Assembly (NCBI GenBank): GCA_945887835.1
Contig: CAMCZQ010000001.1
Coordinates: 1 to 64,000, forward strand
Length of the DNA stretch: 64,000 bases
From: Bordetella parapertussis
GTDB lineage: Bacteria; Pseudomonadota; Gammaproteobacteria; Burkholderiales; Burkholderiaceae_B
Direction: 5' to 3'
How positions within the stretch are numbered: the stretch's first letter is position 1; the number at the start of each line of letters is the position of its first letter. Under the pieces are notes generated by a model. The model made no database searches, had not been told where the DNA came from, and saw only the letters and a program-made list of their open reading frames with translations. Positions 54,693 to 62,344 of this stretch are shown one piece after another. The translations under genes and the position numbers were made by a program.

Positions 54693-55205
54693 CTAGGCGC
54701 GTTCGAGTTCGCGTTGTTCTTTACGCAGGCGAGCTTTGAGCCGTGTCTGCTTCAAGTAAGACAAGTGCTGCACAAACACCTTACCGTTTAAATGATCAAT
54801 CTCGTGCTGTACGCACACTGCCAGCAAGCCTTCGGCATCAAATTCGTGTACCTCGCCTTCGAGGTTCAACGCCCGTATGCGCACTGTCGCAGGCCGCTCT
54901 ACCTCGTCATAGACACCAGGCACCGACAAACAACCCTCTTCGTGGGTTTTTTGCTCGTCACTGCGCGACAAGATCTCGGGATTAATCAGCACCATTAAGT
55001 CGTCTTTATCTTCACTGACGTCAATCACCACAACGCGCTCGTGCACATCAATCTGCGTAGCCGCCAGCCCCACCCCGGGAGCGTCGTACATGGTTTCGGC
55101 CATGTCAGCCGCCAGTTTGCGGATGCGATCCGTCACCGCAGCAACAGGCTTGGCGACCTTGTGCAGGCGTTTATCAGGGAAGTGCAGGATAGGGAGCAGG
55201 GCCAT
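54693..55205 (-). CDS. def: Peptide deformylase Def
   Basis: Def removes the formyl group from new proteins using a metal ion. The 170-residue chain has all three family motifs: PGVGLAATQ at 43-51, EEGCLSVPG with C92, and QHEIDHLNG with H134 and H138 as metal ligands and E135 catalytic. The start at 55205 is normal. It is convergent with fmt and is next to the boundary of the hyu gene cluster. Confidence 0.96.
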
Positions 55206-55502: not shown

Positions 55503-57566
55503 ATGAATCGCATTGGTATTGACGTAGGCGGCACGTTCACGGACATTGTCTTGGTTGACGACGCCACCGGACAAATCTGGTCCGCGAAGGTGCCGACCAC
55601 TCCCTCAGATCGGGTGGTCGGTGCCATGCACGGCTTTCATCGCATCTTGGAGCTGAGCGACAAGACAAGTGCCGAAATTGGCTTTATCGGGCACGGTACC
55701 ACCATGGCCACCAACATGATTGTTGAGGGCAAGGGTGCCAAGACCGCGCTCATTACCACGGCCGGTTTTCGCGATATTCTTGAGCTCCGTAGGGTCTCGC
55801 GCCACGACCGAGCTGATTTGTATGACTTGCAATTTGAAAATCCTAAGCCTCTCGTAGAACGACGCTGGCGCCTCGAGGTGCCCGAGCGCCTGCGCCCCGA
55901 CGGCTCGATCGAGACACCTCTTGACCTCCGGGCGCTGGCAAGTCTGGCTGAAAAAATTAAAGGTTCAGATATCGAAGCGGTAGCGATTTGCTTTTTACAC
56001 GCCTATGTCAATCCCGCACATGAAAAGCAAGCCTTTGATCTGCTTAAGCAATTATTGCCGCAGCACTTCATCACCACGTCGCATCAGGTCAACCCCGAAA
56101 TGCAAGAATACGAGCGCACGAGCTCGACCGTCATGAACGCCCTCTTAGGCCCTGTTTGTGGTCGCTATATCCATCATTTCGACAGTCAGCTTCAAGCCGC
56201 CGGCTTTCGTGGCGAGCTGCTCTTTATGCAATCAAACGGCGGCTTGGCATCAACCGCCGTTGTGGCTGCCAAGCCGATCGTGCTGCTTGAGTCGGGCCCC
56301 GCGGGCGGCGTCAGTGCAGCGGTGCGCGCCAGCGAACAAGCCCAACTACCTGGCGTGTTGTTAGGTGATATGGGCGGCACCACCTTTGACGTTTCGTTAA
56401 TTCGGGAGTCACGCCCAGAGCTTCGTAACAGCAGCCTGCTGCACACCCATGCCGTGCGTGCACCCACCATCGACATCGACTCAATTGGTGCAGGCGGCGG
56501 CTCAATCGCCTGGATTGACAGCGGCGGCGGGGTGCATATTGGCCCCCAAAGCGCAGGGGCTGACCCGGGCCCAGCCTGTTATGGTCGCGGCGGCAAACGC
56601 CCAACCGTCACGGACTGCAACGTCTTACTAGGTTATGTCGACCCAAATTCATTTTTAGGTGGTGAGTTCAAACTTGATGCGCAAGCTGCCGCTGACGCGG
56701 TAGAAGAGCATCTGGCCAAACCGCTGGGGGTATCGGCGCTTGAAGCTGCGTGGACAGTGCGGGTGGTTGCCAACGCCTTAATGGCGCAAGCGATGCGCCT
56801 GATGACCGTTGAGCGCGGCTTTGACCCGCGAGAATTATCGTATATGTGCTACGGTGGCGCAGGCCCGGTGCACGCAATCGATCTGGCCGAAGAACTCGAA
56901 ATCAAAGAGGTGATCGTGCCGCCGCTACCCGGTCTGTTTAGTGCCTTTGGCATGATTGTGGCCGATCGCCAGTTTGATGGACAAACTGCAGTTGAAACCG
57001 AGCTTGAGGCGATTGCTGCGCGGGACATCGCGGCACTTTGCGCCGAGCTCAGGCAGCAGGCGCTCGATACCTTCGGCGCTCAACAAAACTCGCATTCGGT
57101 GCAAACCCACTTTCGCGCCGATTGCCGCTACACCGGTCAGCCCGCGTCGATCTCGGTCGACATCCCTGCCAGCATGCTTGACGGATCTGGGCAACACAGC
57201 CTGATTGCGACCATTCGTGCCGGCTTTGAAACAAACCACAAGCGAATGTGGAACTTCACTAAGCCTAACCAACCGATTGTGCTGGTGAACTTGCGCGTTC
57301 AAGCCAGCGTACGCACCGGCTGGCGAGGTGTGGTGCAGCAATCAAGCGTACGCGTCGCCACGCACGCACTGGTGGCGCCACGCGCACGCGAAGTCTATAT
57401 CGACGGCCGTATGCAAGCACTGCCCACCTACCAACGCTCAGATCTTGCTCCGCTTGCCGTCTTGGCCGGGCCCGCCATTATTGAAGAACAAAGCAGCTGC
57501 TTGATTTTCAAAGTGGGCCAGACCGCACGGATTGATGCGGTCGGCAATTTGCGTATTTCACTCTAG
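55503..57566 (+). CDS. hyuA: HyuA-like hydantoinase/oxoprolinase family protein
   Basis: The 687 residues form the HyuA (N-methylhydantoinase A) subunit: an ASKHA-like N-terminal domain with GIDVGGTFTDIVLVDD and HGTTMATNMI, then ESGPAGGVSAAVRA, DMGGTTFDVSLI, and GGGSIAWIDSGG. In this family A and B subunits hydrolyse ATP to open a ring or to activate a carbonyl for carboxylation. Known members include N-methylhydantoinase, 5-oxoprolinase and acetone or acetophenone carboxylase. Substrate cannot be told from sequence. hyuB follows after seven bases and it starts the operon. The window also has PxpABC for 5-oxoproline. Confidence 0.9.
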   Translation: MNRIGIDVGGTFTDIVLVDDATGQIWSAKVPTTPSDRVVGAMHGFHRILELSDKTSAEIGFIGHGTTMATNMIVEGKGAKTALITTAGFRDILELRRVSRHDRADLYDLQFENPKPLVERRWRLEVPERLRPDGSIETPLDLRALASLAEKIKGSDIEAVAICFLHAYVNPAHEKQAFDLLKQLLPQHFITTSHQVNPEMQEYERTSSTVMNALLGPVCGRYIHHFDSQLQAAGFRGELLFMQSNGGLASTAVVAAKPIVLLESGPAGGVSAAVRASEQAQLPGVLLGDMGGTTFDVSLIRESRPELRNSSLLHTHAVRAPTIDIDSIGAGGGSIAWIDSGGGVHIGPQSAGADPGPACYGRGGKRPTVTDCNVLLGYVDPNSFLGGEFKLDAQAAADAVEEHLAKPLGVSALEAAWTVRVVANALMAQAMRLMTVERGFDPRELSYMCYGGAGPVHAIDLAEELEIKEVIVPPLPGLFSAFGMIVADRQFDGQTAVETELEAIAARDIAALCAELRQQALDTFGAQQNSHSVQTHFRADCRYTGQPASISVDIPASMLDGSGQHSLIATIRAGFETNHKRMWNFTKPNQPIVLVNLRVQASVRTGWRGVVQQSSVRVATHALVAPRAREVYIDGRMQALPTYQRSDLAPLAVLAGPAIIEEQSSCLIFKVGQTARIDAVGNLRISL

Positions 57567-57573
57567 GGTCAAC

Positions 57574-59280
57574 ATGCAAACGATCGTTTACGAAATTTTG
57601 CGCAATTCACTTTACGCCATCGCCCGTGAAATGAAAATCGCCATGATGCGCACTGCGGCCAGCCCCATTATGCATTTAGGTGCTGACGCCTCTGCTGCAG
57701 TATTTGACGCACAGATGCAACTCGTCGCGCAAGGCAATGACATCCCAACGATGTTGGGCTCAGCCGTGATCTCAACCAAGGTCTCCGTCGAAGCGATTGG
57801 TCGCGAGAATTTGCGACCGGGCGATGTCATCATCAGCAACGATGCCTATCTGGGTGGGGGTAATCATCAACCTGATATTCAAATTACACGCCCTGTGTTT
57901 GTGGATAATGAAATTGTCGCCTTTGTGATGACACGGGGTCACTGGAACGACATCGGTGGTCAAGCACCGGGCAGCTACGCGCTCAACACATGGGATATCT
58001 ATGGCGAAGGCATCCGTATTCCGCCTGTGCTGCTGTTTCGTAACGATGAGATCGTACGCGACGTACAAAACATGATCGTCAGCAACACACGCGATCCAGA
58101 AGGTCGGCTACTCGATATTCAAGCGCAATATGCCGGCACCTTTGTTGGCGATCAACGGATTCAGTCCTTGGTGAAGAAGTATGGTGCAGACGCCCTGCGC
58201 GATGCCATGAAGCGCTCGCTCGATCATTCTGAAACCTTGATGCGCGAAGCGATTCGCGGTATCCCCGACGGCGTATATGAGGCTGAAGATTTCGTTGAAG
58301 GCGTGCAATCGCCTGGTTGGTCGGGCGCGAATATCCCAATCAAAGTTAAAGTTACGGTGGCGGGTGATCAGATACACTTTGATTACACCGGTACGGGTAA
58401 ACAAGCGCGCGGTGGGATCAATTGCCCCTTAGCCGTCACCTGCAACAGCACCTGGTTTACGGTCAAGGCCCTCACCGATGTGGCGATACCGATCAATCAA
58501 GGGTGCTATCGCCCCGTGACGATCGAAGCGCCCTTGGGCAGCATCGTGAACTGTACCTTTCCGGCCTCGGTTGTGAGCGGCAACACTGAAACCTCACCTC
58601 GTGTGATCGACCTCTGCTTAAAAGCGTTATCGCAAGCCGTACCCGAACGCGTGATTGGTCAAAGCAACTGCGCAGCCTGCTCGGGCGTCTTTGGCGGGCG
58701 CGACCCCAACGAAGCACGGGTGCGTCGCACCGGCAAAGAATTCATCAGCTTGGTCGAACCGCATGGCGGCGGCATGGGCGCTCGTGCCACGCGTGATGGC
58801 ATTAATGGCATTCGCGTCTATGTGGGCAACGCGGGTGCCTTGCCCGTTGAGTTTATCGAACAGACCATGCCGATCACCGTCGAAGCCTGGGCACTTGTAC
58901 CCGATAGCGGCGGCGCCGGTCGGTGGCGTGGGGGCTTAACCTCACGGCGAACTTACCGCGTCGGCTTTGAAGAGGCCACTGTGACAGCCGCAGGCGAACG
59001 CGGCCAAGCGGCGCCAGAAGGCTATTTTGGCGGTTTAGCGGGTGGCCTCTTTGAATGCCGCATCGTGAGCCCCGATGGCACCGAGCGCACTATGCCAAGC
59101 AAGGGCGCAACCGAGATTGTCCACCTAGGCGATCGAGTGCTCTTGCAACCCGCCGGCAGTGGCGGCTACGGCGACCCGAAAGAGCGCGCGGTTGCGTCAA
59201 TCGAGGCCGATCTGCTGGACGGCTATATCACCATCGAAGCAGCGCGTTCGTTATACGGTTATCAAGGAAGTATCGAATGA
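57574..59280 (+). CDS. hyuB: HyuB-like hydantoinase/oxoprolinase family protein
   Basis: The 568-residue protein is the B subunit partner of HyuA: MRTAASPIMHLGADASAAVFDAQ near the start, DVIISNDAYLGGGNHQPDIQI and HWNDIGGQAPGSYA later, then GINCPLAVTCNSTWF and HGGGMGARATRDGINGI. The in-frame extension back to 57532 overlaps hyuA and is not family-like, so 57574 was chosen. The A and B subunits are separate genes as in hydantoinases, without the additional small zinc-binding subunit seen in acetone carboxylase. It overlaps the CoA-transferase gene by four bases. Confidence 0.9.
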   Translation: MQTIVYEILRNSLYAIAREMKIAMMRTAASPIMHLGADASAAVFDAQMQLVAQGNDIPTMLGSAVISTKVSVEAIGRENLRPGDVIISNDAYLGGGNHQPDIQITRPVFVDNEIVAFVMTRGHWNDIGGQAPGSYALNTWDIYGEGIRIPPVLLFRNDEIVRDVQNMIVSNTRDPEGRLLDIQAQYAGTFVGDQRIQSLVKKYGADALRDAMKRSLDHSETLMREAIRGIPDGVYEAEDFVEGVQSPGWSGANIPIKVKVTVAGDQIHFDYTGTGKQARGGINCPLAVTCNSTWFTVKALTDVAIPINQGCYRPVTIEAPLGSIVNCTFPASVVSGNTETSPRVIDLCLKALSQAVPERVIGQSNCAACSGVFGGRDPNEARVRRTGKEFISLVEPHGGGMGARATRDGINGIRVYVGNAGALPVEFIEQTMPITVEAWALVPDSGGAGRWRGGLTSRRTYRVGFEEATVTAAGERGQAAPEGYFGGLAGGLFECRIVSPDGTERTMPSKGATEIVHLGDRVLLQPAGSGGYGDPKERAVASIEADLLDGYITIEAARSLYGYQGSIE

Positions 59281-60443
59281 GTCAGCCACTACCCCTGGCC
59301 GATGTCTGCGTCATTGAAATCGGCCATAGCTTAGCCGCACCCTATGCTGGCCAAATTTTTGCTCACTTGGGCGCACGCGTGATCAAGATCGAAAACTCAA
59401 CGACGGGCGACTATGCCCGCGGCTGGGGACCGCCGTTTATCGAAGGCGCTGCCGCACTGTTTCATGCGATGAACAACGGTAAACAAAGTATCCGCGCCGA
59501 CTTCAATGACAAAGAGTTCATCGCGCGCGTACGCGCTTTTATCCTTGAGCACGCCGACGTTGTGATTCAGAATCTCAAGCCAGGTAACCTTGAAAGCCAC
59601 GGACTCGGCGCAAATGAGCTGACCGCTGAACAACCCTCGCTGATCTACTGCAATCTTGGTGCGTTTGGTGCCAACGGTCCACTACGCGACAAGCCGGGCT
59701 ACGACCCACTGGCGCAAGCCTACAGCGGCATGATGAGTATTTTGGGACATGAAGGCGACGCCATGAGCCGAGTGCCTTTATCGCTGAACGACATGGGTAC
59801 GGGGATGTGGACCGTGATTGGTGTGCTGTCGGCACTACGCACGCGCGATGCCGACCCCCAGCGGCGCGGTCAAATTGTCGATGTCTCGCTGTACGAAACC
59901 GCCTTGGCCTGGATGATGGTGCCCCTGTCTGATGTGCTTGCAGGTGCAGCTTTACCCAAGCGCAGCGGTTCAAGCAGTCCAAATATTGTTCCCTATCAAG
60001 TGTTTGACTGCGCAGATGGCGCGATCTTGGTAGCAGCAGGAAACGACATCCTTTACGCACGGCTCTGCCAAGCGATGGAGTTACCCGCACTGGCCCAAGA
60101 CCCACGCTTTATCGCCAACGGTGGTCGCGTCGAAAACCGAGTGGCTTTGATCGAATTACTGCAAACGCGCTTTAAAGAATTACCGGCTCAAGAATGGCTC
60201 GCCAGGCTTGAAACAGTGTCGATACCGTGTGGCCCGATTCAGACCGTTGATCGCGTCATTGCTAACGAGCAGACACGAGCACTTGATATTTTGCGCACGA
60301 CACCGAATGGCAAAGCCACGACGGTAGCCTTGCCGATTTCTTTTAACGGCAACCGTCCGCCTCTGGCGGGCAATGCGCCTACACTTGGTGAACACGATTA
60401 TTTGCTGCACCCAGCCAACCAGCAAACCAACTCGGAGACATGA
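59277..60443 (+). CDS. CaiB/BaiF family (class III) CoA-transferase
   Basis: The 388-residue protein has the class III CoA-transferase pattern, with EIGHSLAAPYAGQIFAHLGARVIKIE at the start and the catalytic aspartate D172 in SLNDMGTGM. Members move CoA between a donor thioester and an acid, such as oxalate, carnitine or arylacids. ATGA overlap with hyuB fixes the start. With the HyuAB pair and the hydratase, it suggests that the product of HyuAB is an acid which is then activated to a CoA ester. Confidence 0.92.
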   Translation: MSQPLPLADVCVIEIGHSLAAPYAGQIFAHLGARVIKIENSTTGDYARGWGPPFIEGAAALFHAMNNGKQSIRADFNDKEFIARVRAFILEHADVVIQNLKPGNLESHGLGANELTAEQPSLIYCNLGAFGANGPLRDKPGYDPLAQAYSGMMSILGHEGDAMSRVPLSLNDMGTGMWTVIGVLSALRTRDADPQRRGQIVDVSLYETALAWMMVPLSDVLAGAALPKRSGSSSPNIVPYQVFDCADGAILVAAGNDILYARLCQAMELPALAQDPRFIANGGRVENRVALIELLQTRFKELPAQEWLARLETVSIPCGPIQTVDRVIANEQTRALDILRTTPNGKATTVALPISFNGNRPPLAGNAPTLGEHDYLLHPANQQTNSET

Positions 60444-61258
60444 TGTCTGTTGCCACGATTAATCTTGCCACACCTTATCAAACGCTAGCGCTGTCTTCGC
60501 CATTTGAAGGCCTGCTGGTGGTTCAACTAAATCGCCCTAAAGTCGCCAACGCCCTGAACACCACCATGGGCGAAGAGTTGATACAAGTGTTCGGCACGCT
60601 CGAGGCCTCACCTGAACAGTTTCGCTGCGTTGTCTTAACGGGCGCTGGCGAAACTATTTTTTGTGGTGGCGCCGATCTAAAAGAGCGCGATGGCATGACC
60701 GATGCGCAGTTCAACACTCAACATTATTTGTTTGAGCGCATGGCGCGTGCGATTTATGACTGCCCGGTCCCCACCATTGCTTGCGTCAACGGCGCGGCCA
60801 TCGCTGGCGGGCTTGAGCTCGCCTTGTCGTGTGACTTTATCGTTGCCTCAGACAATGCTCGCTTTGGCTTTGCTGAAGTCAAACGCGGCATCATGCCGGG
60901 TGGTGGTGGCACACAACAACTGCCGCGGGCCATTGGTGTTCGACGCGCGAAAGAGGTCATCTTCACCGGCGACCCGTTTGATGCGCAAGACGCTTTGAGT
61001 TTTGGGCTACTGAATCATGTGTATCCCAAAGCGGCGCTATACGACGAGACCATGAAACTCGTACAACGCATTCTTGCTAACGCCCCTATTGCTGTGCGAC
61101 AAGCAAAAAAATCCATTACCTTTGGCTTGCAGATGGATATGCGTACCGGTATGTTCTTTGAAGTAGAAGCCTATAGCCGCTTAGTGGCAACCGATGATCG
61201 CATGGAGGGGATCCGTGCCTTTAACGAAAAACGTCCCCCAAAATTTACCGGTAAGTAA
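60443..61258 (+). CDS. Enoyl-CoA hydratase/isomerase family protein
   Basis: The 271-residue crotonase-fold enzyme has GGADLKERDGM (oxyanion loop), NGAAIAGGLELAL and FGFAEVKRGIMPGGGGTQQLPRAIG. Both catalytic glutamates of classical hydratases are kept (E125 in GGLELA and E145 in GFAEV), so water addition to an enoyl-CoA is likely. Starts at 60440 and 60443 are possible; GGAG upstream favours the second. It follows the CoA-transferase with a one-base overlap and precedes a Bug gene. Confidence 0.92.
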   Translation: MSVATINLATPYQTLALSSPFEGLLVVQLNRPKVANALNTTMGEELIQVFGTLEASPEQFRCVVLTGAGETIFCGGADLKERDGMTDAQFNTQHYLFERMARAIYDCPVPTIACVNGAAIAGGLELALSCDFIVASDNARFGFAEVKRGIMPGGGGTQQLPRAIGVRRAKEVIFTGDPFDAQDALSFGLLNHVYPKAALYDETMKLVQRILANAPIAVRQAKKSITFGLQMDMRTGMFFEVEAYSRLVATDDRMEGIRAFNEKRPPKFTGK

Positions 61259-61321
61259 TCACCAAAACATAATATTCACCCCGACCCGAGCAACTCGCTC
61301 AAACAACTGCAAGGAGACATT

Positions 61322-62344
61322 ATGAAACTCACCCAGCGTGCAAAAGACACTCAGGTAGCGCTTGTAAACAAAAATTTGCGTGGTTTACTAAAAGGCTTCG
61401 CACTGGCAGCAACACTTGGTGCCACGCCGTTTATCGCAAGCGCCCAAGCGCCTGCGGCCTGGGCGCCCAACAAACCCATCAAACTGATCGTGCCTTACCC
61501 GCCCGGTGGTGGCTCGGACACGATCGCGCGCATTATCGTCAACGGCTTAGGCAATAAACTAGGTCAAACGGTGGTGGTTGAAAACCGTGCTGGTGCAAAC
61601 GGCGCGGTCGCGCACGAAGTCGTATTTAACGCGGCTCCCGATGGCTATACCCTGCTACTCTCGAGCGCAGACACCTATTCGATGTACCCCGCGCTCTATC
61701 CCAACCCAAAATTTATTTCGGCAGAGTTTGTACCGATCGCACCGGCAGCGGTCGTGAACTTTGTACTGATGGGTCGCCCAGGTCTTGAGGCTAAAAATGT
61801 ACCTGAGCTGATTGCCCTGGCAAAAAAGGGCAAGCTGAGTTATTCGAGCTGGGGCAATGGTAGCGCTGGACATATCGCTATGGCTCAATTTAATCAAGTA
61901 ACGAAAACCGACATGCTGCACGTGCCCTATCAAGGTGCTGCACCAGCGGCGCAAGCTGCAATGGGTGGTCAGGTTGACTTAGCGCTTGTGCCGGCCCCGT
62001 TGGCGGCAGGCTTTAAAACTAAGCTCATCCCGTATGGAGTGGCCTCTGCAAAGCGCGTCGAACTGATTAACGAAATCCCAACGCTGACCGAGCAAGGCAC
62101 AACCGTGGTTGCCCCGTCATGGGTGGGCGTGGTCGCTCCACCAAAAACGCCTAGCAACATCATCGCCGCACTTGCCAAAGCCTTTATTGAAACTTCAGCT
62201 GACCCAGAAGTTGGCAAAAAGCTCAACGCTGCAGGCTTAGTGCCTTTATATGGCTCAACGAAAGAGTTTGCTGACTACATCGCCAAAGACTACGCGTTTT
62301 GGGGAAAGGCCATTCGAGATGCCGGCATCAAAGTTGAAAACTAA
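61322..62344 (+). CDS. Tripartite tricarboxylate transporter solute-binding protein (Bug/TctC)
   Basis: This 340-residue Bug-family protein has a signal peptide ending near SAQA (about residue 43, with a long basic n-region), PIKLIVPYPPGGGSDTIARIIVNGL, and NRAGANGAVAHEVVFNAAPDGYTLL. It should bind a carboxylate or amide in the periplasm, perhaps the substrate of the preceding HyuAB pathway. A GGAG site precedes the ATG (AAGGAGACATT). No tctAB follows, so the membrane component is elsewhere. It is the last gene of the cluster. Confidence 0.93.
   Translation: MKLTQRAKDTQVALVNKNLRGLLKGFALAATLGATPFIASAQAPAAWAPNKPIKLIVPYPPGGGSDTIARIIVNGLGNKLGQTVVVENRAGANGAVAHEVVFNAAPDGYTLLLSSADTYSMYPALYPNPKFISAEFVPIAPAAVVNFVLMGRPGLEAKNVPELIALAKKGKLSYSSWGNGSAGHIAMAQFNQVTKTDMLHVPYQGAAPAAQAAMGGQVDLALVPAPLAAGFKTKLIPYGVASAKRVELINEIPTLTEQGTTVVAPSWVGVVAPPKTPSNIIAALAKAFIETSADPEVGKKLNAAGLVPLYGSTKEFADYIAKDYAFWGKAIRDAGIKVEN

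Follow-up and report, generated by a model that had tools for sequence, protein, structure and literature searches.

Genes of the hydantoinase/oxoprolinase family are numerous, and for most of them no substrate is known. The operon considered here contains two such genes, hyuA and hyuB, followed by genes for a class III CoA-transferase (CaiB), a crotonase-type enoyl-CoA hydratase (ECH) and a solute-binding protein (Bug), and it lies in a 64,000-nucleotide stretch of Bordetella parapertussis DNA (positions 1 to 64,000 of contig CAMCZQ010000001.1, assembly GCA_945887835.1), referred to below as the window. Several described systems come close to parts of this operon. For the caprolactamase CapAB of Pseudomonas jessenii, four metal ligands are given for CapB, and Tyr136 is named as the only obvious acid/base candidate (PMC8453981). 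Hyd clusters contain two genes, acetone carboxylase (Acx) clusters three and acetophenone carboxylase (Apc) clusters four or five, and a gamma-lactamase of the HyuAB family takes part in indoleacetate (iaa) catabolism in Aromatoleum (PMC5214803). In the latter pathway, which has an aromatic substrate, the CoA ligase IaaB acts first, the CoA-transferase IaaL moves CoA within or between acids, and the mutase IaaGH and the dehydrogenase IaaF follow (PMC8360864). Finally, the itaconate/methylsuccinate cluster of Pseudomonas and Cupriavidus comprises Ict, Ich, Ccl, a methylsuccinyl-CoA dehydrogenase and an MmgE/PrpD methylsuccinate isomerase (PMC12290011, PMC9875883), and the known MmgE/PrpD substrates have a four-carbon dicarboxylate core in common (PMC12290011).

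The operon has features in common with each of these systems. With CapAB, it shares the two subunits, the ATP motifs, the metal ligands and a position equivalent to Tyr136 that is mostly Tyr, while a Cys-Cys pair and several pocket residues differ and the downstream genes are others. The acetone and acetophenone carboxylases have homologous alpha and beta subunits, but the operon is without gamma or extra subunits. The iaa pathway likewise combines a hydantoinase-family lactamase with a CoA-transferase, and neither the IaaGH mutase nor the IaaB CoA ligase is found among the five operon genes. The leucine/isovalerate (Liu) pathway may have a methylglutaconyl-CoA-hydratase-like enzyme in common with the operon and has a hydroxymethylglutaryl-CoA (HMG-CoA) lyase type in common with its relatives; however, the operon has a CoA-transferase instead of a biotin carboxylase, and no biotin 3-methylcrotonyl-CoA carboxylase is among its five genes, the rest of the genome not having been searched for one. 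In the itaconate/methylsuccinate cluster, a CoA-transferase, a hydratase and a Claisen-type lyase are clustered. By contrast, the window cassette has a HyuAB front end and a crotonase-fold (ECH_1) hydratase, lacks the acyl-CoA dehydrogenase and MmgE/PrpD genes, and has relatives in which the lyase is of the HMG-CoA lyase or citryl-CoA lyase type or is absent from the neighborhood. Ich is of the MaoC type and Ccl of the CitE type; because the hydratase and lyase here belong to other families, we rejected a plain itaconate pathway. Thus, a hydantoinase-family lactamase in one pathway with a CoA-transferase is known, while in our searches of the openly licensed literature we found neither its coupling to hydration and Claisen cleavage nor a description of HyuAB combined with a CoA-transferase and a hydratase/lyase. 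To that extent, the statement in the earlier note on this DNA that the operon matches no described pathway is borne out. The five genes are as follows:

55503-57566, plus strand: HyuA, ATP-binding alpha subunit (hydantoinase/lactamase type), 687 aa (Pfam PF05378/PF01968/PF19278, ATP motifs)
57574-59280, plus strand: HyuB, metal-binding beta subunit, 568 aa (Pfam PF02538, metal ligands, clade-specific pocket residues)
59277-60443, plus strand: CaiB, class III (CaiB/BaiF) CoA-transferase, 388 aa (PF02515, D172)
60440-61258, plus strand: ECH, crotonase-type enoyl-CoA hydratase, 272 aa (PF00378, nearest PRK07657/AUH)
61322-62344, plus strand: Bug (TctC-type) solute-binding protein, 340 aa (PF03401)

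The ATG starts at 57574 (HyuB) and 59277 (CaiB) were chosen by us over longer mechanical open reading frames (ORFs) beginning at 57532 and 59055, each of which overlaps the preceding gene; with these starts, the intergenic distances along the operon are 7, -4, -4 and 63 bases. The Pfam scores are all far above the cut-offs (Hydantoinase_A 311, Hydantoinase_B 542, CoA_transf_3 338, ECH_1 237 and TctC 190 bits; CaiB was scored with two extra residues). The earlier description of five same-strand genes with small gaps or overlaps is therefore accurate.

The gene-neighborhood survey of homologues called for in the earlier note revealed conserved rather than scattered co-occurrence. The survey set consisted of 58 loci from a genome-wide HyuB scan, two plasmid records and the window copy; one locus (L114, 34% HyuB) was dropped before counting, leaving 60 loci, and two that look broken (L105 and L112) were kept in the counts. 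The two plasmid records, found by a search of plasmids, are those of Variovorax sp. RA8 (85%) and Shinella sp. PSBB067 (63%); the Shinella plasmid (NZ_CP069303) is unannotated in the cassette stretch. ORFs were picked by a codon-usage script and clustered by single linkage at 35% identity. Because six of the 60 loci have too little downstream DNA for a count over 2.5 kb and 15 for one over 5 kb, the denominators are 54 and 45, respectively. CaiB follows HyuB in 48/54 loci, and CaiB-ECH does so in 47/54. As controls, we used 27 HyuAB paralogue loci, which were picked by us, are mostly best-scoring and all come from the order of the window; CaiB is present in two of them, ECH in six, both in one (L150), and an HMG-CoA lyase (HMGL) or a citryl-CoA lyase in none, counts that are not exactly alike to those of the cassette loci because the controls were scanned by tblastn over 10.5-20 kb and the cassette loci by clustering. 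The difference between 47/54 and 1/27 indicates that the CaiB-ECH association is more than chance. The same gene order is found in alpha- and betaproteobacterial records, classes that we take from the record names. The controls thus tie CaiB and ECH to this particular HyuAB clade, while Bug is a general companion of HyuAB; HyuA-HyuB-CaiB-ECH is confirmed as a real, conserved, accessory cassette that is presumably catabolic. The HyuAB clade is a discrete one, given the gap between HyuA orthologues with at least 79% identity, which are present in 12 of the 32 genomes of the genus (the window's own included), and all other HyuA matches at E <= 1e-100 in the 101 genomes searched, which have at most 43% identity. 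In loci L039-L048 and L057-L065 with a HyuA identity of at least 89%, HyuB and the hydratase are 97-100% identical to those of the window, while HyuA is 89-97%, CaiB 89-99% and Bug 89-99% identical.

Many relatives also have a gene for a carbon-carbon lyase. Where 5 kb or more of DNA follow HyuB (45 loci), an HMGL, counted anywhere in the stretch examined, is present in 24 loci and a citryl-CoA lyase in three; no locus has both, and 18 have neither. Pusillimonas caeni and two Shinella account for the three loci with citryl-CoA lyase. In Caballeronia, loci whose cassette is intact have the order HyuA-HyuB-CaiB-ECH-MFS-HMGL, usually with a divergent LysR gene, and in Variovorax sp. RA8 the order is LacI-HyuA-HyuB-CaiB-ECH-HMGL-Bug, with a hydroxymethylglutaryl-CoA lyase annotated in the record itself. 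Residues 7-286 of the 309 residues of the Variovorax HMGL align with solved HMG-CoA lyases, two representative HMGLs score above the cut-off of the NCBIfam subfamily (273 and 283 vs. 246 bits), and the Shinella citryl-CoA lyase passes its equivalog cut-off (394 vs. 261 bits). That two different lyases occupy one place suggests that a tertiary 3-hydroxyacyl-CoA is cleaved to acetyl-CoA. Because 27/45 loci with room carry a Claisen-type lyase, the beta-oxidation-like breakdown proposed in the earlier note is not required in its ordinary form, with no systematic search for thiolase or 3-hydroxyacyl-CoA dehydrogenase genes having been made. Genes resembling LeuC-LeuD-LeuB are near the cassette in seven loci (L075, L079, L093, L094, L103, L105 and L106); they may be catabolic paralogues or the leucine genes themselves, and they were not used as proof, as the one set that was scored, in L103, lies above leucine-biosynthesis cut-offs. 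Four neighbors of the Asp/Glu-racemase family received no NCBIfam name at 1e-15.

The HyuAB proteins are best read, from their sequences, as a two-subunit ATP-dependent cyclic-amide hydrolase. The cluster has only two HyuAB genes, the spaces within the operon being too small to hold a gene for a third subunit, and no gamma or further carboxylase subunit is found among the five. This two-gene architecture favors ring opening and, because there is no third subunit, makes ketone carboxylation less likely. HyuA contains two phosphate motifs and an adenosine motif (DVGGTFTD from residue 7, DMGGT at 289 and GADPGP at 352), which match the Hyd branch yet are also common to carboxylases. Its best NCBIfam model is CapA (540 bits, cut-off 1000), and the CapB model reaches 289 bits on HyuB (cut-off 1000); both exceed the corresponding Apc scores (540 vs. 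272 and 289 vs. 101 bits), the Apc models scoring 272 (ApcC, cut-off 1500), 212 (ApcA, cut-off 1250) and 101 (ApcD, cut-off 1500). An acetone carboxylase model is not among the NCBIfam matches listed for the operon proteins. We rejected caprolactamase identity, as the CapA and CapB scores remain below the cut-offs, and also acetone/acetophenone carboxylase identity, as the Apc models score below their cut-offs, the acetone carboxylase model is not listed and there is no gamma subunit. Carboxylation of a ketone to a beta-keto acid would ill suit the hydratase that follows, and no thiolase is among the five operon genes. Of the two activities considered in the earlier note, opening of a lactam or hydantoin ring and carboxylation of a ketone, it is thus the first that is favored by the two genes and the CapAB scores.

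In HyuB, the metal tetrad D38/H98/D101/H123 is invariant (56/56 HyuBs) and corresponds to the ligands of CapB, but it is largely common to carboxylases and so is not decisive. The position of CapB Tyr136 is Y135 in the window HyuB and is Tyr in 49 and Phe in seven of the 56 proteins, compared to Ile as the commonest residue (9) in the 27 control HyuBs. Other pocket positions set the clade apart: CapB I62 and M339 are replaced by T59 and S341 (each 56/56), S389 by H397 (55/56), and the Cys-Cys pair by V415-Y416 in the window HyuB; E339 occurs in 3/27 controls, Q309 in 1/27 and C311 in 3/27, and the position of HyuA C372 is Ala in 27/27 controls. Because these conserved residues differ from those in CapB and the controls, the pocket looks specific for one small polar substrate. 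HyuA D296, taken as the equivalent of CapA Asp302 because of how far it lies from DMGGT, is Asp in 53/53 cassette proteins vs. Asp in 18 and Lys in nine of the 27 controls; Apc-alpha likewise has Asp at this position, which weakens the marker (PMC8453981).

CaiB has D172 in an SLNDMG motif, and ECH has E126 and E146. We take these to be the catalytic residues of the respective families, so that the catalytic Asp and the two catalytic Glu reported in the earlier note are present. The nearest NCBIfam models of CaiB, all below cut-off, are the succinate--glutarate, oxalate and mesaconate CoA-transferases. ECH is closest to PRK07657 (269.7 bits vs. a cut-off of 363); in the PDB, 3kqf is its best match and 1hzd (human AUH, a methylglutaconyl-CoA hydratase) the second, with a GADLKER motif common to all three. 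The CaiB gene overlaps hyuB by 4 bases in the window, which suggests that the substrate of the CoA-transferase is the product of HyuAB.

Based on the observed gene content, gene and residue conservation and the two alternative lyases, we infer the following reactions, their order and their substrate. Bug would capture a small cyclic amide, either an imide or a lactam, whose carbon skeleton is branched, or else a related acid. HyuA would phosphorylate the ring carbonyl with ATP and the HyuB metal site would open the ring, giving a branched unsaturated C5-C6 dicarboxylate or half-amide that may be mesaconate-, itaconate- or 3-methylglutaconate-like. The class III CoA-transferase would form the CoA thioester of the ring-opened acid, and the AUH-like hydratase would add water to give a tertiary 3-hydroxyacyl-CoA. 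An enzyme of the HMG-CoA lyase or citryl-CoA lyase type, nearby in many relatives and possibly elsewhere in the window's genome, would then release acetyl-CoA and an oxoacid. In other words, ATP-dependent opening of a cyclic amide by HyuAB would feed a branched dicarboxylate to CoA transfer, hydration and cleavage, a model to which we give about an even chance. One conserved unit for ATP-dependent activation, CoA transfer and hydration had been suggested in the earlier note, and the conservation of CaiB-ECH lends support to such a unit, the reactions themselves being our prediction.

Two carbon skeletons fit the downstream enzymes. Conversion of 3-methylglutaconyl-CoA to HMG-CoA would fit a hydratase that is nearest to PRK07657 and AUH and has the GADLKER motif in common with 3kqf and AUH. 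Conversion of mesaconyl- or itaconyl-CoA to citramalyl-CoA would fit the MmgE/PrpD neighbors described below and the exchange for citryl-CoA lyase; in Haloarcula, a class III mesaconate CoA-transferase is found together with a mesaconyl-CoA hydratase (PMC5592240). A single mycobacterial lyase performs both the HMG and the citramalyl reaction (PMC6689899). Thus, the lyase family need not separate the two skeletons. The mycobacterial enzyme presumably belongs to another family.

Several points weigh against the proposed pathway. No lyase is nearby in 18/45 loci, including all six loci of the window's genus with room for one, and the window's genome has two HMGL homologues elsewhere that are 42% and 35% identical to the cassette type. 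Seven of the 54 loci break the gene order: L064 is HyuA-HyuB-ECH-Bug without CaiB; in L074, CaiB is present but ECH is elsewhere in the locus and not after CaiB; in L081, the CaiB beside HyuB is a fragment of 93 residues; no CaiB is adjacent in L099, L104 or L107; and L105 is broken. The order of the iaa pathway, in which the CoA ligase acts first, is also different. Neither the Tyr136 equivalent nor HyuA D296 is more than a weak marker. There is no half-amidase in the cassette, and an amidase is near three loci only (Roseomonas-type). The hydratase and lyase families fit both 3-methylglutaconyl/HMG and mesaconyl/citramalyl chemistry.

Some of the irregular loci have features of their own. L074 (Burkholderia sp. 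Ac-20365) and L081 (Paraburkholderia graminis) have a second CaiB that is 71-72% identical to that of the window, while the CaiB beside HyuB (58% in L074, the short piece in L081) is less like it; both loci also have a separate group of ECH, MFS, HMGL and metallo-beta-lactamase-fold genes. In L105 (Candidatus Paraburkholderia schumanniana) and L112 (Caballeronia sp. BR6202001591004), HyuA/HyuB are in pieces, from either pathway loss or sequencing error.

Other explanations of the cassette differ in the role that they give to HyuAB. It is possible, if rather unlikely, that HyuAB opens a lactam or hydantoin to an amino or ureido acid, with CaiB, ECH and the lyase acting later on the deaminated skeleton; the ring would then not be an imide and other enzymes would be encoded elsewhere in the genome. 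The known hydrolases of the family act on lactams, hydantoins or oxoproline (PMC8453981), and the scarcity of amidase genes near the cassette also fits this explanation, while the CaiB/hyuB overlap suggests that the CoA-transferase acts on the HyuAB product itself, and no transaminase, carbamoylase or deaminase is among the named neighbor clusters, many neighboring ORFs being unnamed. We consider it distinctly unlikely that HyuAB is a biotin-independent, ATP-dependent carboxylase producing a glutaconate-type diacid, e.g. 3-methylglutaconate from 3-methylcrotonate, that then follows a leucine-like route via CaiB, the hydratase and HMG-CoA lyase. A hydratase nearest to PRK07657/AUH next to a lyase that is mostly of the HMGL type, as in the Liu pathway (PMC9636800), speaks for such a carboxylase, and ketone carboxylases are among the HyuAB homologues. 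However, there is no gamma subunit as in Acx/Apc, the Apc scores are far below those of CapA/CapB and the acetone carboxylase model is not listed, the HyuAB-less sister operon described below has the same downstream enzymes, and citryl-CoA lyase replaces HMGL in three loci.

A lactone or another cyclic ester, in place of an amide, is a very improbable substrate of HyuAB. Metallo-beta-lactamase-fold genes are near six cassette loci, the one that was scored resembling lactonase models at scores far below the cut-offs, and an SMP-30/gluconolactonase gene is near the Variovorax cassette; but if a lactonase is present, HyuAB would not be needed for the ring, and we know of no ATP-dependent lactone opening by the HyuAB family. 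Least of all do we expect that the genes travel together without forming one pathway. The cassette is accessory and lies beside def at 8/30 def loci while dprA is beside def at 21, as such co-travel would allow, but the gene order recurs across alpha- and betaproteobacterial records and the paralogue controls are without the association.

The downstream enzymes also occur without HyuAB. In genomes G001, G008 and G014, which belong to the window's genus, a sister operon has the order CaiB-ECH-HMGL-acyl-CoA dehydrogenase-MmgE/PrpD (loci L169-L172, together with G003); its CaiB and ECH are 45-47% and 53-55% identical to those of the window and its HMGL 52-55% to that of Variovorax, and within 15-20 kb around it no HyuAB is found in these three genomes. 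A short contig of G003 contains ECH, HMGL, acyl-CoA dehydrogenase and MmgE/PrpD, two of them cut, without CaiB. Pfam identifies the dehydrogenase and MmgE/PrpD in G008; in the other genomes, both were assigned by similarity. A tartrate-dehydrogenase-type gene is near the sister operon in G001, G008 and G014 (above the model cut-off in G008); G001 and G008 also have a gene resembling that of a TRAP permease there. In L104 (Rhodobacteraceae), MmgE/PrpD, acyl-CoA dehydrogenase, HMGL, ECH and CaiB are divergent from HyuA, HyuB and TRAP genes; in having an acyl-CoA dehydrogenase and MmgE/PrpD, this locus and the sister operon are like the itaconate cluster. From the alternative lyases and from the different front end of the sister operon, we suggest that CaiB-ECH-HMGL serves branched short dicarboxylates as a reusable module, parallel to the itaconate route; HyuAB would be one possible front end of this module.

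Related HMGL groups are more varied. In the window's genome, L167 (G000:C35:4000-23900) has another HMGL-CaiB-Bug group, whose neighbors are an Asp/Glu-racemase-family protein and two FAD dehydrogenases similar to TcuA (346 and 353 bits; cut-off 369), while no hydratase gene was called; this group may be a third front end to the chemistry described above; in L168 (G000:C165), the 35% HMGL homologue is directly followed by MmgE/PrpD (43% to that of the sister operon), with Bug genes nearby. On the short contig of L173, ECH and HMGL are the only such genes; L174 has HMGL and Bug, and L175 HMGL and a 33% CaiB without ECH. These loci (L173-L175), in which the gene picker missed some genes, were set aside. 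On plasmid pJE1 of Sphingomonas sp. JE1 (L208), an HMGL (51%) is found with a CaiB (28% to that of the window) and no HyuAB, and the neighbors are two LeuCD-type pairs, an isochorismatase-family hydrolase, an Asp/Glu-racemase-family protein, two PuuE (allantoinase)-like proteins (114 and 80 bits vs. a cut-off of 425) and a protein resembling methylisocitrate lyase that scores below cut-off. Half-amidases are found among isochorismatase-family enzymes, and cyclic imide hydrolases among proteins of the deacetylase fold; pJE1 is a lead, and only that, to a possible ATP-independent cyclic imide pathway. The imidase hint is absent from the other three of the four HMGL-CaiB plasmid loci viewed, one of which (L207) has an amidohydrolase-family gene.

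The Bug protein is a weak member of the set. In relatives, its slot is taken by MFS, ABC or TRAP genes, and a Bug gene is near 22/27 control HyuAB loci; it is therefore an exchangeable transporter slot that is not diagnostic, and we rejected it as part of the cassette signature.

In the window, the operon is flanked by genes that we take, from their translations, to be def-like (54693-55205, minus strand) and dprA-like (from 62423). The 30 def loci, in 29 of the 32 genomes of the genus, have HyuA beside def in eight cases and dprA beside def in 21, with one cut off; the cassette is thus accessory within the genus. G007 shows both junction states (L179 filled, L206 empty), perhaps because two strains are in one metagenome bin.

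More speculatively, HyuAB may be an ATP-driven imidase that opens natural alkylated maleimides, glutaconimides or related imides, with the carbon then recovered by the CoA-transferase, the crotonase-type hydratase and a Claisen cleavage of the HMG/citramalyl type; that such an undescribed and widespread route exists is a tentative idea, which we regard as unlikely. If true, the route by imidase and half-amidase, which needs no ATP, would have a counterpart driven by ATP, and the imides could come, for example, from the breakdown of tetrapyrroles or of plant or fungal secondary metabolites. For the HyuAB family as a whole, the cassette ties one tight clade to a definite downstream chemistry. 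This moves the expected substrate away from lactams, hydantoins and ketones at large and closer to precursors of branched short dicarboxylates, which can be tested in cultured relatives.

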